The notes below the pieces were generated by a model. The model saw nothing but the letters and a program-made list of their open reading frames with translations, was not told where the DNA came from and ran no database searches. A program made the translations under genes and the position numbers. From NCBI GenBank assembly GCA_018266435.1, contig JAFEAL010000002.1, positions 1 through 64,000 on the forward strand: a stretch of 64,000 nt of DNA, written 5' to 3'. Source of the DNA: Bacteroidota bacterium (GTDB lineage: Bacteria; Bacteroidota; Bacteroidia; Cytophagales; Cyclobacteriaceae). Shown in pieces: positions 4,495 through 46,456 of this stretch; positions within the stretch are counted from its first letter, which is position 1, and each line of letters begins with the position of its first letter.

Positions 4495-5847
4495 ATGAAA
4501 AAATCATTTATCTACTTTACACTCTTACTGGCTATCAGCACGCTGGCACTCTTTATTCCGGCCGTGCCCGGGTCTATTCACACCGAAGGCATTAACTCAG
4601 GCGATGTAGGCTGGATGCTTGCCGCTTCAGCCCTCGTTTTGTTAATGACACCCGGCCTGGCTTTTTTTTATGGAGGCATGATCGATACCAAAAACATCAT
4701 CTCTACCATGCTGCAAAGTTTTATTGCCATGGGCGTGGTGAGTGTGTTGTGGATTGTGGTGGGATTTAGTTTGGCTTTTGGCGACTCAATTGGTGGATAC
4801 ATCGGCAACCCGGCAACGTTTTTTATGTTTCAACATGTATTGGATGGAAAGCCGTGGTCATTGGCACCTACGATTCCACTGGTACTTTTTGCTTTCTTTC
4901 AATTGAAGTTCGCCATCATTGCTCCTGCATTGATTACGGGTACGTTTGCTGAGCGGGTTAAATTCAAATCGTACATTGTTTTTCTGGTTTTGTTCTGCCT
5001 GTTTATTTATGCTCCCTTGGCTCACTGGACATGGCACCCAAAAGGGTTCTTGTTTAAACTGGGCGTGTTGGATTTTGCCGGTGGCACAGTAGTACACATG
5101 TCGGCCGGGTTTGCTGCGCTCATCGCATCCATCTACTTGCGAGACAAGTCAGCAGGGAAAGAGGCCATCGCCCCAGCCAATATTCCCTTTGTGTTGTTGG
5201 GTACTGGCTTATTGTGGTTCGGGTGGTTTGGTTTCAATGCCGGAAGTGCAATGAGTGCAGGCACATTAGCGACTTCGGCTTTTGCCACTACCAACACGGC
5301 TTCGGCTGCTGCGGGGCTGTGCTGGGTATTGTTTGATGTCGTGCGCGGAAAAAAACCTTCGGCTTTAGGATTTTGCATTGGTGCCGTGGTAGGACTGGTG
5401 GCCATCACTCCGGCAGCAGGTTTTGTTACCATTCCTTCCAGTTTATTTATTGGTACAGTGGCTGCGTTGATCAGCAATGTGGTGGTTCACTGGAAATCCA
5501 AAACTTCATTGGAAGACACACTGGATGTTTTTCCCTGTCACGGTGTGGGCGGATTGGTGGGTATGATCATGACTGCCCTGTTTGCCAACACGGCTGTTAA
5601 CGGAGCAAACACAACGGGCAACGGATTATTTTTTGGAGAGACTGCCTTATTTAAAGTACACCTGATCGGCCTGGTGGTGGTTATTGCTTATGTGACTATC
5701 GGATCATTCATCATCCTTAAGATTACTGATCTGTTTTCTTCGTTACAGGTCAGCTCGGAAGAAAAATTGGTAGGAAACGATTTGAGCCAGCATGGAGAAA
5801 ATCTTTACCCGGTTGAAATAAGGAAACTCAATGAAAAAGCGGCATGA
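4495..5847 (+). CDS. amt: ammonium transporter (Amt/Mep/Rh family)
   Basis: This inner-membrane ammonium channel has a cleavable-looking N-terminal segment and the usual run of about 11 membrane helices over 450 residues. The pore twin histidines are present in 'GGTVVHMSAGFAA' (about H202) and 'FPCHGVGGLVGMI' (about H348). 'WFGWFGFNAGSA' is the family signature. I chose the ATG at 4495 over a TTG at 4468 because it gives a standard signal sequence (MKKSFIYFTLLL). No glnK/glnB PII gene follows, although amt is usually linked to one. Instead a porin gene begins 55 bases downstream, which suggests a joint outer- and inner-membrane uptake route. Confidence 0.95.
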   Translation: MKKSFIYFTLLLAISTLALFIPAVPGSIHTEGINSGDVGWMLAASALVLLMTPGLAFFYGGMIDTKNIISTMLQSFIAMGVVSVLWIVVGFSLAFGDSIGGYIGNPATFFMFQHVLDGKPWSLAPTIPLVLFAFFQLKFAIIAPALITGTFAERVKFKSYIVFLVLFCLFIYAPLAHWTWHPKGFLFKLGVLDFAGGTVVHMSAGFAALIASIYLRDKSAGKEAIAPANIPFVLLGTGLLWFGWFGFNAGSAMSAGTLATSAFATTNTASAAAGLCWVLFDVVRGKKPSALGFCIGAVVGLVAITPAAGFVTIPSSLFIGTVAALISNVVVHWKSKTSLEDTLDVFPCHGVGGLVGMIMTALFANTAVNGANTTGNGLFFGETALFKVHLIGLVVVIAYVTIGSFIILKITDLFSSLQVSSEEKLVGNDLSQHGENLYPVEIRKLNEKAA

Positions 5848-41852: not shown

Positions 41853-42193
41853 ATTGATTGTAGAAATTTGAGGCTTCATTTTTCAACAACAAGCAAAAGT
41901 GTCGATAAAAGCTAATAAACTTTGTTTTTACACAGTTTCCTAATAGCCTGAAAGTGTTTGATTAGGTGACCCGATAAAAAGCGCGTCTTTAACTAGAAAT
42001 AACTCAAAGGAATTAGTTGATTTTACACGGGCAGAGTGCAGAAAATTCTTGCCCGAATTACCAGAAGAGTTTTATAGAAAGTAATGCCTGAACTTCGTCA
42101 AAAAGAATAATCAAACACTCGTTAGTTAAAAAAACTTAAAAAACAGTAAGTCATTAGTTGCATGAAGTTTTTTTTTCCTTTTTCTTTACGCCC
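41853..42193. other. AT-rich spacer upstream of the aromatic operon leader
   Basis: About 340 bases between the purH promoter box and the leader peptide. The operon promoter must lie here, but no exact TAnnTTTG match with a proper -33 element stands out; TAAACTTTG near 41915 is one base too long. A 41-codon open stretch on the plus strand (about 41967-42082, ending 'CRKFLPELPEEFYRK') looks protein-like but has no start or recognised family, so it is not called as a gene. No RNA gene was identified. Confidence 0.5.
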
Positions 42194-42259
42194 ATGAACA
42201 ACACCCAGCGATTTTATTTTTGGTTTTACTTTTATCAACTCCACCGGGGCTTGAGGTAA
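42194..42259 (+). CDS. aromatic leader peptide for attenuation of the Phe/Tyr operon
   Basis: This 21-codon ORF (ATG to TAA) begins MNNTQ and continues RFYFWFYFYQLHRGLR. It has eight aromatic codons in a row: four Phe, three Tyr, one Trp. It ends 45 bases before a terminator hairpin and 84 bases before pheA. The run of Phe and Tyr codons would stall a ribosome when charged tRNA-Phe or tRNA-Tyr is short, as in E. coli pheL or the trp leader. Its coding also contributes RNA segments: GCGATTTTA at 42208-42216 and CGGGGCTT at 42245-42252 take part in the alternative structures described for the attenuator. Confidence 0.85.
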   Translation: MNNTQRFYFWFYFYQLHRGLR

Positions 42260-42330
42260 AATCGCTTAGTCATAGTTAGAAAAAGACAAACGAAAATAAC
42301 AACAAAAGCCCCGACCCTATCGGGGCTTTT
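42208..42330 (+). promoter_or_regulatory. transcription attenuator: alternative RNA structures before pheA
   Basis: Four pairing segments are visible. (1) GCGATTTTA 42208-42216 is complementary to TAAAATCGC 42257-42265, a 9-bp stem that straddles the aromatic codons and the stop. (2) CGGGGCTT 42245-42252 is complementary to AAGCCCCG 42306-42313, the 5' arm of the terminator, and can act as antiterminator. (3) AAAAGCCCCG 42304-42313 pairs with CGGGGCTTTT 42321-42330 as terminator. A ribosome stalled in the aromatic run leaves segment 2 free to form the antiterminator. A ribosome reaching the stop would cover it, so the terminator forms. Confidence 0.8.
42304..42330 (+). terminator. attenuator terminator before pheA
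   Basis: AAAAGCCCCG and CGGGGCTTTT make a perfect 10-bp stem with a 7-nt loop (ACCCTAT) and a T-run inside the 3' arm. It stands 13 bases before the pheA ATG, so it acts inside the operon leader, not at an operon end. Confidence 0.92.
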
Positions 42331-42342
42331 CATTTGTACCCT

Positions 42343-43206
42343 ATGAATAAAAACAAAAAACTAAAAATAGCCATACAAGGTATTGCCACCAGCTTTCACG
42401 AAGTAGCAGCTCTCACCTATTTTACTGAGCCTTTTGTGTCAGTAGAATGCCTCACATTTCATGCACTGTGTGAATCACTAAAAAAAGACGAAAGTGATTT
42501 CGCCATGATGGCCATTGAAAATTCCATTGCCGGCAGCATCCTGCCCAACTACTTTCTCTTACAAGAATATCATTTCTCTATCATCGGAGAAGTGTACCTG
42601 CCCATCCACATGCACTTGCTGGCCTTGCCTGGCGTGACGATGAAAGACATTAAAAACATTGAAAGCCACCCAATGGCCATACGCCAATGTTCGGATTACC
42701 TGCACCGGTTGAACGGAGTCGATATTCGAGAAAGCGATGACACAGCTTACTCGGCAAAAAAAGTGGCTGACAAAAAACTAAAAGACACTGCGGCCATTGC
42801 CAACGAGTATGCCGCTAAAAAATTTGGATTGGCGATTTTGGAAAAACGCATCGAAACACACAAGAAAAATTTCACACGGTTCCTCGTATTGTCACGCAAA
42901 ACCACTGCTTCGGGCGAAGCTCAGCCTGGCCAGCTGGCCAGCAACAAAGCTTCATTGTGTTTTGAAGTGGCCAACGAAGTGGGAAGCCTGGCCGAAGCAT
43001 TGATGACTTTTAAAACCAACGCCATCAACCTTACTAAAATTCAGTCCATCCCAATCATTGGCAAACCTAACGAATACTCCATCCACATTGATGTAGAGTG
43101 GAAAAGCAGAAAAAATTATGACAATGCCATAAACCAGGTATTGAGGCAAGTGAGAAACCTGAACATTTTAGGAGAATACAAAAAAGGAAAAATAGAATAT
43201 AAATAG
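42343..43206 (+). CDS. pheA: prephenate dehydratase with ACT domain
   Basis: The enzyme converts prephenate to phenylpyruvate for Phe synthesis. The 287 residues have the dehydratase domain (about 1-185) with 'ESHPMAIRQCSDYL', 'DDTAYSAKKVAD', 'AAIANEYAAKKFGL' and the catalytic T-R-F in 'HKKNFTRFLVL'. The C-terminal ACT domain (about 205-287) binds Phe for feedback inhibition. It has no chorismate mutase part; that is in the aroF-type fusion at the end of the operon. ATG 42343 is preferred over TTG 42334. It is the first structural gene behind the attenuator. Confidence 0.94.
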   Translation: MNKNKKLKIAIQGIATSFHEVAALTYFTEPFVSVECLTFHALCESLKKDESDFAMMAIENSIAGSILPNYFLLQEYHFSIIGEVYLPIHMHLLALPGVTMKDIKNIESHPMAIRQCSDYLHRLNGVDIRESDDTAYSAKKVADKKLKDTAAIANEYAAKKFGLAILEKRIETHKKNFTRFLVLSRKTTASGEAQPGQLASNKASLCFEVANEVGSLAEALMTFKTNAINLTKIQSIPIIGKPNEYSIHIDVEWKSRKNYDNAINQVLRQVRNLNILGEYKKGKIEYK

Positions 43207-43247: not shown

Positions 43248-44459
43248 ATGATTGCAACGGCAAATAGAATAAAAGGAGTTGAAGAATATTATTTCAGCAA
43301 AAAATTAGCTGAAGTACGCACCCTTGATACAGGTGATCTGCGCGTAATTAACCTCGGCATCGGCAGCCCTGATCTTGCACCAAGTGCCGAAACTATCAAT
43401 GCGCTCAGCACATCGGCAAAAAACCCGGCTAACCACGGGTATCAAAACTACAAAGGCATTCTACCGTTGCGGCAAGCCATTGCCGACTTCTATTCAAAAA
43501 CCTATTCAGTCAACCTCAATCCTGAAACAGAGATTCTTCCGCTAATGGGCTCGAAGGAGGGTATCATGCATATCAGCATGGCATTTGTGAACGAAGGCGA
43601 GCAAGTACTCATTCCTAACCCCGGCTACCCAACCTACTCATCGGTTTCCAACCTGGTTGGAGCAAAACTGATTTCCTATGAAATGAAAGAAGAACTGAAT
43701 TGGGGAATAGACCTCGAGGTACTTAAGAAAAAAGATTTATCTCAGGTAAAAGTAATGTGGGTAAACTTTCCGCACATGCCCACCGGTAGAATTGCTTCGA
43801 GAGAAGAATTGAAAATACTCGTTGACCTGGCACGTCAAAACAATTTTCTTATTGTGAACGACAACCCGTACAGTTTGATCTTGAATGAGAGCCCGCAAAG
43901 TATTTTATCGATAGAGGGGGCATGCGATGTGGCCCTTGAATTGAACTCACTCAGCAAAAGCCACAACATGGCCGGCTGGCGCATTGGTTGGCTGGCCGGC
44001 AAAAAAGAATTAATTGATGCCGTATTGAAAGTAAAGAGCAACATGGACTCGGGCATGTTTCTCGGCCTGCAACACGCAGCCGTAGAAGCTTTGAAGAGCG
44101 GCAACGAATGGTTTCAGAAACAAAATGAAATCTACCGCAAGCGGCAACAGGCGGCCTGTGCCATCCTCCAAAAACTCGGCTGTACTTTTTCAACCAAACA
44201 ATCCGGTCTGTTTGTTTGGGCAAAGGCCCCCGATGCTGTTGCCGATGTTGAAAAATGGATTGATGAAATTTTATACGGCACAAAAGTCTTCATCACTCCC
44301 GGCTTCATCTTTGGTGATGCCGGAAAACGATTCATCCGCATTTCGCTTTGCGCTACAGAAGAAAAATTGAATGAAGCCCTATCAAGAATTTCAGATTACA
44401 AGTTTAAAACTTCAAATTCTAAAACGGTAATGCCGGATGGATCAACAGTTTCAATATGA
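43248..44459 (+). CDS. class I/II pyridoxal-phosphate aminotransferase, aromatic or aspartate type
   Basis: The fold-type I aminotransferase has the PLP lysine in 'LNSLSKSHNMAGWRIGWLAG', the Asn/Tyr site 'VNDNPYSLIL', and 'GIGSPDLAPSAETINAL' at the start. Its position between prephenate dehydratase and prephenate dehydrogenase implies transamination of phenylpyruvate and 4-hydroxyphenylpyruvate to Phe and Tyr, or of prephenate to arogenate. This is inferred from context. The 403 residues include an unusual polar C-terminal tail after about residue 385 (FKTSNSKTVMPDGSTVSI). The gap to pheA is 41 bases. Confidence 0.9.
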   Translation: MIATANRIKGVEEYYFSKKLAEVRTLDTGDLRVINLGIGSPDLAPSAETINALSTSAKNPANHGYQNYKGILPLRQAIADFYSKTYSVNLNPETEILPLMGSKEGIMHISMAFVNEGEQVLIPNPGYPTYSSVSNLVGAKLISYEMKEELNWGIDLEVLKKKDLSQVKVMWVNFPHMPTGRIASREELKILVDLARQNNFLIVNDNPYSLILNESPQSILSIEGACDVALELNSLSKSHNMAGWRIGWLAGKKELIDAVLKVKSNMDSGMFLGLQHAAVEALKSGNEWFQKQNEIYRKRQQAACAILQKLGCTFSTKQSGLFVWAKAPDAVADVEKWIDEILYGTKVFITPGFIFGDAGKRFIRISLCATEEKLNEALSRISDYKFKTSNSKTVMPDGSTVSI

Positions 44460-44490: not shown

Positions 44491-45348
44491 ATGAAAGTAA
44501 CAGTTATTGGTTTAGGATTAATTGGCGGCTCAATGGCCATTACACTGCGCAAGTCAGGCCTGGCCACTGAGTTGTTTGGTGTCGACCAAAACGAAGCCAA
44601 TGCTAAAAAAGCCATTGACCTTAACCTCATTGACCACGTGCTGCCGGTGCATGATGTTTTGCCACAAAGCGATCTGGTGCTCATCTCCATTCCGGTAAAT
44701 GCCACCGCAGCCTTGTTGCCTTCGGTATTAGAAAATGTAAATGAACAAGCCGTAGTGATTGATGTGGGTTCCACCAAAAACCTGATCTGTAAATCCGTGA
44801 GCCACCACCCCAGGCGGAAACAATTTGTAGCCGCTCACCCAATTGCCGGAACGGAATTTTCAGGGCCATCTGCTGCCTTTGACGGATTGTTTGAAAATAA
44901 AACCAATATTATCTGCGAGCGTGAAAAATCATCACCCGCAGCCCTATCCAAAGCACTCAATATTTTTGAGGCTCTGAAAATGAAAACCATTTTTATGGAT
45001 CCTGTAGAGCACGACAAACACGTGGCTTATGTTTCGCACCTTTCGCACGTAAGCTCGTTCTTGCTGGGACAAACCGTGCTGGATATTGAAAAGGATGAAA
45101 AAAATATTTTTGACCTGGCCGGCAGCGGGTTTGCCTCCACCGTGCGGTTAGCCAAAAGTTCGCCCGATATGTGGGCCCCCATCTTCGAACAAAACTCAGA
45201 ATACCTCAGCCAGGCACTGGCCGAATACATCATGCACCTGCAAAAATTTCAATACCATTTAATGAAAAAAGATGGCCTGGAGTTGCACAAGATCATGACC
45301 AAGGCCAATGCCATAAAGCATGTACTCAATAAAGAAAATAAATCGTAG
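44491..45348 (+). CDS. tyrA: prephenate dehydrogenase
   Basis: The NAD(P)-dependent enzyme oxidises prephenate to 4-hydroxyphenylpyruvate for Tyr synthesis. The N-terminal Rossmann motif is 'VIGLGLIGGSMAITLRKSG'. The catalytic His lies in 'HPIAGTEFSGPSAA', and 'VAYVSHLSHVSSFLL' belongs to the helical dimer domain. The 285 residues are the mono-functional form without ACT or chorismate mutase. The 31-base gap to the aminotransferase and 19-base gap to the next gene indicate one operon. Confidence 0.95.
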   Translation: MKVTVIGLGLIGGSMAITLRKSGLATELFGVDQNEANAKKAIDLNLIDHVLPVHDVLPQSDLVLISIPVNATAALLPSVLENVNEQAVVIDVGSTKNLICKSVSHHPRRKQFVAAHPIAGTEFSGPSAAFDGLFENKTNIICEREKSSPAALSKALNIFEALKMKTIFMDPVEHDKHVAYVSHLSHVSSFLLGQTVLDIEKDEKNIFDLAGSGFASTVRLAKSSPDMWAPIFEQNSEYLSQALAEYIMHLQKFQYHLMKKDGLELHKIMTKANAIKHVLNKENKS

Positions 45349-45367
45349 AACAATAAATTCACCCACC

Positions 45368-46456
45368 ATGAAACTAAAATCGATCTCTCAATTTTTAAAC
45401 GTACAAAAGCCGATCCTCATCAGCGGACCTTGCAGCGCTGAAACAGAAGAACAAACCATAGCCACAGCCAAACAAATTGCCGCCACCGGAAAAGTACACG
45501 CCCTGCGTGCGGGCATCTGGAAACCCCGCACACGGCCCGGTCAGTATGAAGGTGCAGGCGATGTAGGCTTGCAATGGTTAGTGTCTGCCAAAAAAGAAAC
45601 CGGTCTTCCTATCACCACCGAAGTGGCTAATGCCGCGCATGTTGAAGCTGCACTAAAAGCCGGTGTGGACATTCTTTGGATCGGTGCACGCACTACCGTC
45701 AATCCATTTTCTGTGCAGGAAGTGGCTGACTCGCTAAAAGGAGTTGACATACCCGTGATGGTAAAGAACCCCGTTAACCCTGATTTAGAATTATGGATCG
45801 GTGCGTTAGAACGCCTGAGTAAAGCAGGCATCACTACGATGGCTGCTATTCATCGTGGGTTTTCATCTTCTGAAAAAGGACCCTTCCGAAATTTGCCCAT
45901 GTGGGACATTGCCATCGAATTAAAAACACGTTTTCCCGAACTTGAAATTATCTGTGACCCCAGCCACATCAGCGGCAACCGCGACCTGATTGCATTCATC
46001 TCACAAAAAGCGCTCGACCTCGACATGGCAGGCCTGATGATTGAAAGCCACATCAACCCCGATGCTGCGTGGAGCGATGCCAAGCAGCAAGTAACACCTT
46101 CCGTACTCGGAAAAATTGTGAGCGAACTGGTGGTGCGCAAACCCGATAGTGAAAACAAAACATTTAAAGATACCCTGGGCCTGTTGCGTGAACAGATTGA
46201 TCACCTCGATGACGAGATCATGCAGAAAATGGCCGCCCGTATGAAAATCTCAGAAAAAATAGGCCAATACAAAAAAGAAAATAACGTAACAATTCTTCAG
46301 GTAAACCGGTGGGAAGAAATCATTAAAACCCGCGTAGCCCTGTGTAAAGCCATGGGCCTTGACGAAGGCTTTACTCGCGATTTGCTGCGATTGGTACACC
46401 ACGAATCCATTCAGGTGCAAGAGAAAGTGATGAACAAAACGGAAGTAAAAGTATAG
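45368..46456 (+). CDS. bifunctional DAHP synthase / chorismate mutase (AroQ type)
   Basis: The N-terminal DAHP synthase (about 1-265) makes the first shikimate-pathway step. It has 'PILISGPCSAETEEQT', 'LRAGIWKPRTRPGQYEG', 'CDPSHISGNRDLI' and the metal-site Glu and Asp in 'IESHINPDAAWSDAKQQ'. The C-terminal all-helical chorismate mutase (about 272-362) starts 'LGLLREQIDHLDDEIMQKMA' and contains 'RMKISEKIGQYKKENNV', an AroQ pattern. This fusion is common in Bacteroidota. The mutase supplies prephenate for the two genes upstream. ATG 45368 is used; an upstream frame runs into tyrA. Confidence 0.94.
   Translation: MKLKSISQFLNVQKPILISGPCSAETEEQTIATAKQIAATGKVHALRAGIWKPRTRPGQYEGAGDVGLQWLVSAKKETGLPITTEVANAAHVEAALKAGVDILWIGARTTVNPFSVQEVADSLKGVDIPVMVKNPVNPDLELWIGALERLSKAGITTMAAIHRGFSSSEKGPFRNLPMWDIAIELKTRFPELEIICDPSHISGNRDLIAFISQKALDLDMAGLMIESHINPDAAWSDAKQQVTPSVLGKIVSELVVRKPDSENKTFKDTLGLLREQIDHLDDEIMQKMAARMKISEKIGQYKKENNVTILQVNRWEEIIKTRVALCKAMGLDEGFTRDLLRLVHHESIQVQEKVMNKTEVKV

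Follow-up and report, generated by a model that had tools for sequence, protein, structure and literature searches.

A conserved element before pheA in Bacteroidia with the features of a Phe/Tyr leader-peptide attenuator

Background

Leader-peptide attenuation of transcription has been described mostly from Proteobacteria. In E. coli, for example, pheL is the attenuator of pheA, and the leader of ilvGMEDA is rich in codons for several end products of its operon. To go by its title, a work by Lopatovskaya in 2010 is reportedly a comparative survey of attenuation in bacteria. The Bacteroid-trp RNA is presumably a Trp-codon attenuator. Table 1 of PMC2864571 gives RF01692 (Bacteroid-trp) as a cis-regulatory motif of Bacteroidetes and RF01743, Leu/phe, as a leader of Lactococcus lactis. 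Both belong to a different operon or phylum from the element described here, and neither gave a match in our Rfam search of the window. The ilvBNC uORF likewise combines codons for several end products of its operon (PMC10272879); ilvGMEDA and ilvBNC differ from the present case in concerning branched-chain amino acids and other phyla. Long 5′ UTRs in B. thetaiotaomicron contain sORFs that are reminiscent of leader peptides, as a passage of PMC7366714 puts it.

The closest report concerns Flavobacterium psychrophilum, which is also a member of the Bacteroidota, and the same gene, pheA. According to the relevant section of PMC9723704, there are strong clues that amino-acid operons of this species are preceded by leader-peptide attenuators; as a separate point, it describes 5′ elements of pheA and hisG that are conserved in other Flavobacteriaceae genera and have no Rfam matches. 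The section contains neither a leader sequence nor a pairing or codon analysis for pheA, and it stops short of calling the pheA element an attenuator outright; the present analysis resolves the pheA element and detects it in 14 families. The statement in the first-pass annotation that attenuation is much less described in Bacteroidota has to allow for the clues already published for F. psychrophilum (PMC9723704, same section). A literature search aimed at papers that join Phe or Tyr codons with leader-peptide attenuation found none.

We analyzed a window of 64,000 nucleotides (positions 1 to 64,000 of contig JAFEAL010000002.1, assembly GCA_018266435.1) from a member of the Cyclobacteriaceae. 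The region before pheA is, we are confident, a transcription attenuator of the ribosome-mediated type, with charged tRNA-Phe and tRNA-Tyr as the signals sensed. An attenuator of this type had been proposed in the first-pass annotation, and the proposal has been borne out, in that leader, terminator, and antiterminator are conserved in relatives and can be followed across 14 families. The Phe/Tyr attenuator is real, conserved, ordinary in its logic, and under-described. Its mechanism is known and its presence in Bacteroidota had been suggested earlier; what this work adds is the resolved pheA element and its spread. With E. coli pheL and the corresponding Rfam family, RF01859 (Phe_leader), it shares a Phe-rich leader peptide, a terminator before pheA, and an alternative antiterminator. 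In contrast to these, Phe and Tyr codons alternate in the leader, the antiterminator strand lies within the coding sequence, and the operon spans both the Phe and the Tyr branches.

Anatomy of the pheA leader

The features of the element and of the operon behind it are as follows.

42194-42259, + strand: leader ORF of 21 codons, MNNTQRFYFWFYFYQLHRGLR then stop (from translation; leader kept in relatives)
42207-42216, + strand: enclosing stem, strand 1, AGCGATTTTA
42212-42235, + strand: sensing codons 7-14, Phe Tyr Phe Trp Phe Tyr Phe Tyr
42239-42242, + strand: C-rich spacer CTCC, possible local partner of GGGG at 42246-42249
42245-42252, + strand: antiterminator strand CGGGGCTT, a copy of the terminator 3′ arm, in codons 18-20
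42257-42266, + strand: enclosing stem, strand 1′, TAAAATCGCT, starting at the leader stop codon
42304-42314, + strand: terminator 5′ arm AAAAGCCCCGA, also the antiterminator partner
42320-42330, + strand: terminator 3′ arm with U-run, TCGGGGCTTTT
42343-43206, + strand: pheA, prephenate dehydratase, first gene of the operon (Pfam)
43248-44459, + strand: class I/II aminotransferase (Pfam)
44491-45348, + strand: tyrA, prephenate dehydrogenase (Pfam)
45320-46456, + strand: DAHP synthase fused to chorismate mutase (Pfam; ORF as listed)

Many of these parts had been recognized by the first-pass annotation, and translation confirms its 21-codon leader with eight consecutive aromatic codons. The 8-base copy of the terminator arm within the leader is exactly complementary to 42306-42313, as had been claimed. 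It had been placed in the codons for His-Arg-Gly-Leu, of which it occupies Arg18, Gly19, and the first two bases of Leu20, while His17 (42242-42244) lies just outside. The terminator does pair perfectly, although over 11 bp and not 10, and it ends 12 nt before the ATG of pheA instead of 13; similarly, a further pair described as 9 bp (42208-42216 with 42257-42265) is present as a stem of 10 bp.

The four genes had been assigned to DAHP synthase, chorismate mutase, prephenate dehydratase, prephenate dehydrogenase, and transamination, and Pfam supports every one of these functions. Translation of the last ORF may well begin instead at an inner ATG, at 45368. With genes for the Phe branch as well as the Tyr branch, the operon fits a leader that bears both kinds of codon. 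Upstream of the leader, purH lies on the opposite strand, so the terminator is not that of a same-strand upstream gene.

Aromatic short ORFs occur elsewhere in the window. Ten with at least six aromatic residues in nine are found on its two strands, compared with 2.25 per shuffled window, and a terminator together with a copy of at least 7 nt accompanies only the leader at 42194-42259. The combination of ORF, terminator, and copy was seen 0 times in 20 dinucleotide-shuffled windows, and the 171-nt leader region folds with z = -2.81 relative to shuffles.

Two further candidate sensors, the mini-ORF MKFFFPFSLRP (42162-42197) and an upstream in-frame TTG extension, were set aside because the same place carries a promoter-like TTG-N(17-21)-TAnnTTTG in 11 Chryseolinea-type relatives (L053-L056, L060, L061, L066-L069, and L098), where it ends 17-20 nt 5′ of the leader ATG. 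The TAnnTTTG motif is present in 17/70 regions (6.6% when shuffled). It was not found in the window, where there is a T-rich stretch alone at about 42155-42190.

Conservation in the genus and order

The sequence of the window and its comparison with relatives establish the anatomy, conservation, covariation, and geometry of the element. Within the genus, pheA was detected in 20 of the 24 genomes other than the window's own, which has it too; the four that gave no match are drafts of 76-79% completeness. All 21 loci have an aromatic-run leader, with terminator and copy readable in each. In one genome (L014 / L077) the leader is frameshifted within the run and pheA contains stops, perhaps through sequencing error.

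A second set comprised 76 loci from Chryseolinea, Ohtaekwangia, Dawidia, Chryseosolibacter, and many Cytophagales MAGs. It shares genomes and contigs with the same-genus set, and the two are not independent. Among its members are the cultured Chryseolinea serpens (L056) and Ohtaekwangia koreensis (L066), each of which has the element. The 76 regions scanned were the 75 loci with upstream sequence together with the window, using a leader threshold of at least five aromatic residues in nine. An ATG-started aromatic leader is present in 72 of them and three more have one with a GTG or TTG start, leaving a single region (L104) where no aromatic leader was found. A scan for terminators with perfect arms returned none in seven rows (L037, L038, L039, L045, L103, L104, and L106) and the wrong one in L043; the imperfect hairpins of L037-L039, L043, and L045 were anchored by sequence pattern and are included in the terminator counts. 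In the same way, the exact-match search for the copy overlooked copies containing G-U pairs in L035, L036, and L047. Leaders and a complementary strand are present in L103 and L106. The alignment used below has 72 rows, leaving out L101 (no upstream sequence), L103, L104, and L106 (distant or none), and L050 (a duplicate).

All 72 aligned leaders have an aromatic run of 7-10 residues, with one non-aromatic residue permitted. Both Phe and Tyr are present in every run, and Trp in just 20/72. The suggestion that the leader senses overall aromatic supply is therefore better narrowed to Phe and Tyr. In L031 and L033 the run appears one base shorter than in close relatives, which shifts the frame after seven aromatic codons; the copy and the terminator are retained in both.

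The peptide is alike among close relatives, as would be expected if it were a small protein with a function of its own at a distance from the ribosome, and there is a precedent in the attenuator leader peptide peTrpL, which is reported to work in trans (PMC7298713). Against such a role, positions within the run interchange Phe, Tyr, and sometimes Trp, and the C-terminal end of the leader tracks the needs of the antiterminator and the stem. We consider a small protein of this kind highly improbable.

A 5′ region that is structured and ends in a terminator might also be a riboswitch or T-box, that is, an RNA that senses a ligand or tRNA directly, with the ORF incidental. Searches with Rfam 15 at curated thresholds found one tRNA in the window and nothing else, with no family reaching its gathering score in the element. 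When the loci of 20 relatives were searched whole, the sole match was to IRE_II, in L051 at 5008-5038 and well away from the element, and Phe_leader reached its cut-off in 0/20. The coding run, the terminator, and the antiterminator are kept while the remaining sequence changes, which also argues against a riboswitch or T-box, and we find that explanation scarcely credible.

Covariation of the competing helices

Conserved pairing was assessed helix by helix, because RNAalifold cannot hold mutually exclusive helices; applied to the 72 rows, it recovers the terminator and a 3-bp spacer hairpin alone. The terminator is paired in 99.5% of cells, with double changes in seven of its 11 pairs and 56 double-change cells compared with 10.2 when shuffled. 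In the antiterminator 92.5% of cells are paired, which drops to 61% when the partner is slid by one column. It has 10 double-change cells with 2.8 expected, a number reached by 0/500 shuffles; counted by pairs, there is no excess of those with double changes (2 vs 2.0 shuffled) or of further pair types (9 vs 8.4). The local pairing of the CTCC spacer with GGGG is paired in 83.7% of cells with little covariation, and is suggestive only.

The enclosing stem was compared as a duplex. Native arms reach -15.4 kcal/mol, with -11.3 for arms swapped between relatives and -9.1 for shuffled arms, and the native stem is better than the swapped mean in 65/72 relatives. Its sequence varies by group, for example AGCGATTTTA/TAAAATCGCT as opposed to CAACAACACA/TGTGTTGTTG, and this retention of predicted pairing as the sequence changes in relatives supports a stem between 42207-42216 and 42257-42266.

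A device of the same class could instead use a different competing stem, as in Rfam Phe_leader, in which the aromatic run (42214-42233) pairs with an A-rich spacer (42280-42299). With lax thresholds, RF01859 aligns over its full length at 40.8 bits, below its gathering cut-off of 55, and this sub-threshold alignment pairs the run with the spacer; the two 20-nt arms are 75% complementary. However, U-rich codons and an A-rich spacer will pair through composition, whereas the 42207-42216/42257-42266 stem is a perfect 10 bp and keeps its pairing with changed sequence in relatives. The Phe_leader type of stem is therefore an unlikely alternative to the enclosing stem.

In many relatives a GAG 3′ of the copy can pair with an ACTC 5′ of the terminator, as a possible inner extension of the antiterminator, and variants include GCG/CGC, AGTAG/CTACT, and GATA/TATC. 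Such an extension has at least 3 bp in 59/72 leaders (33% of shuffles) and just 2 bp in the window. We do not claim it, as it was spotted by eye first and swapping separates it poorly (3.17 vs 2.86).

Ribosome position and the proposed mechanism

The copy follows the last aromatic codon at a nearly constant distance, which is 11 nt in 47/72 leaders and 8-14 nt in 69/72. The three outliers have either an extra aromatic codon (L044 and L079) or a misplaced G-run anchor (L041). Toeprinting places the front edge of the ribosome 15 nt past the first P-site base, so that a ribosome whose A site holds the last aromatic codon would end at about the start of the copy.

From these positions and pairings a mechanism can be proposed in which leader translation, ribosome stalling, termination, and regulation by amino-acid supply are, we infer, connected as in known attenuators. 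RNA polymerase would transcribe the leader while a ribosome translates it. When Phe or Tyr is scarce, the ribosome would stall in the run at 42212-42235 with its front edge just before 42245. The antiterminator strand, still free, would bind the terminator 5′ arm while the 3′ arm has yet to be transcribed, allowing transcription of pheA. With a good supply, the ribosome would cover 42245-42252 and reach the stop codon, so that the antiterminator is blocked, the terminator folds, and transcription would stop near 42330. The 42207-42216/42257-42266 stem would probably be the first to form on ribosome-free RNA, for pausing or superattenuation, and this is the least certain part of the proposal.

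A folding model of the ribosome edge was applied to these leaders, in which folding is confined to the RNA between the ribosome and the terminator 3′ arm; the footprint is assumed, and pairing across the ribosome is excluded by assumption. For the window, the antiterminator has a probability of about 0.72 with A-site codons 2-13 and 0.63 at codon 14, the last aromatic one, falling to 0.32 at codon 15, 0.01 at codon 16, and 0 beyond. The shut-off boundary predicted by the model coincides with the end of the aromatic run. The model marks this shut-off and not the sensing codons, as stalls at codons 2-6 also permit the antiterminator. Across the alignment, a stall at the last aromatic codon leaves the antiterminator probability above 0.5 in 58/72 leaders; for a stall seven codons earlier the count is 64/72, and for a ribosome at the stop it is 0/71.

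When ribosome-free RNA is folded at equilibrium up to but not including the 3′ arm, the antiterminator is favored in 44/72 leaders, with a probability of 0.70 in the window. A default-off state would thus need kinetics or prompt translation, and the enclosing stem would be no simple equilibrium shield.

The stop codon starts within 17 nt of the copy start in 31/72 leaders and 19-29 nt after it in 40/72, with one leader having none. At the larger distance a terminating ribosome would not cover the copy. Completed translation is predicted by the model to block the antiterminator in the window, and is assumed to do so in the 40/72 leaders with a distant stop. Leaders of the 19-29 nt class often end in Cys codons.

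Spread across the class Bacteroidia

The class set contained 149 genomes, of which 39 have a prephenate dehydratase match. One partial match (G442) was left out, and the 38 remaining loci were combined with seven class loci (one of the same family) among the phylum-search matches listed, giving 45 regions. An ORF with at least six aromatic residues in nine lies within 300 nt in 27/45 regions (1.7% when shuffled), and at the stricter threshold of at least seven in nine in 19/45 (0.2% when shuffled). A control for His runs gave 0/45. The 27 leader-bearing regions span 14 families, including the window's own. In a phylum-wide search, the best 30 prephenate dehydratase loci, of which 29 are from outside the window's class, had leaders in 0/30.

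The other 18 class regions have no leader at the 6/9 threshold, and two of them have one at 5/9. In 10 of the 18, a same-strand ORF ends within 100 nt of the prephenate dehydratase match, which suggests that pheA is probably internal to an operon there.

The antiterminator was examined by swapping terminator arms between families in 25 of the 27 regions, leaving out L176 and L183 (the window's own), which have no T-run of five. Native duplexes reach -14.7 kcal/mol, those with arms from other families -9.4, and shuffled ones -7.1. In 25/25 regions the antiterminator strand does better with its own terminator arm than the mean of the swapped other-family arms, and the share of other-family arms that do equally well has a median of 4%, with a worst case of 48%. 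Examples of these duplexes are GAGACTTT/AAAGTCTC (L189), AGGATT/AATCCT (L170), and GGCAGGA/TCCTGCC (L191). The enclosing stem is weaker class-wide, being above the swapped mean in 17/25. Aligning relatives, as the first-pass annotation had advised, thus upholds the leader, terminator, and antiterminator; the third stem keeps its predicted pairing in close relatives, with weak support across the class.

These comparisons also bear on the idea that a constitutive terminator sets a fixed low level of pheA and that the T-rich ORF is fortuitous and untranslated. It gains from the ease with which T-rich sequence yields Phe codons and from the nine other aromatic short ORFs in the window. Yet chance would hardly account for the excess of aromatic leaders over shuffled regions with a blank His control, for a copy that follows the terminator sequence across families, or for the near-constant distance from run to copy, so that a constitutive terminator is a very improbable explanation.

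A wider reading, which we offer tentatively and with some doubt, is that a Phe/Tyr attenuator was ancestral in Bacteroidia and has been kept across at least 14 families with nearly all of its sequence replaced. The front edge of the ribosome would be the main switch, with the antiterminator strand in the last leader codons about 11 nt past the run, and the protector stem would be secondary or dispensable. If the attenuator functions as proposed, a single Phe/Tyr device would govern aromatic synthesis in many lineages of Bacteroidia, at shared and at terminal steps alike, would be one that Rfam 15 does not match at the cut-offs used, and would provide a natural series of covarying switches for direct tests of ribosome-edge geometry.

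His and Trp leaders in the same lineage

Leaders of a similar kind are found before other amino-acid operons of the window's own genome, both on contig C11.

L125, position 1203 of the reverse complement: hisG leader, His run MFNNTHTLHHHHTFLTDGRMMF, followed by a terminator before hisG
L214, locus position 1308: trpE leader, Trp run MKLHSINAWWWHRSIIDRCMTMYC, followed by a terminator before trpE

A His-run leader precedes hisG at 16/16 same-genus loci scanned (G013, with hisG fragments alone, was left out, and two same-genus genomes had no match), and five same-order hisG loci include one clear His run (L114) and one weak one (L112). A WWW leader precedes trpE at 9/9 testable same-genus loci, the tenth (L207) beginning at a contig end, and at 1/3 same-order loci scanned. 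Nothing convincing was found in a search for branched-chain leaders before ilvD. In the His leader of the window's genome, GGCAGG repeats the 3′ arm of the hisG terminator. Pairing of the leader end with the 5′ side of the terminator, which was sought by eye and without a control, reaches -10.2 (his) and -12.6 kcal/mol (trp). With His and Trp leaders in the same genome, attenuation appears to be a way in which this lineage generally controls its amino-acid operons.
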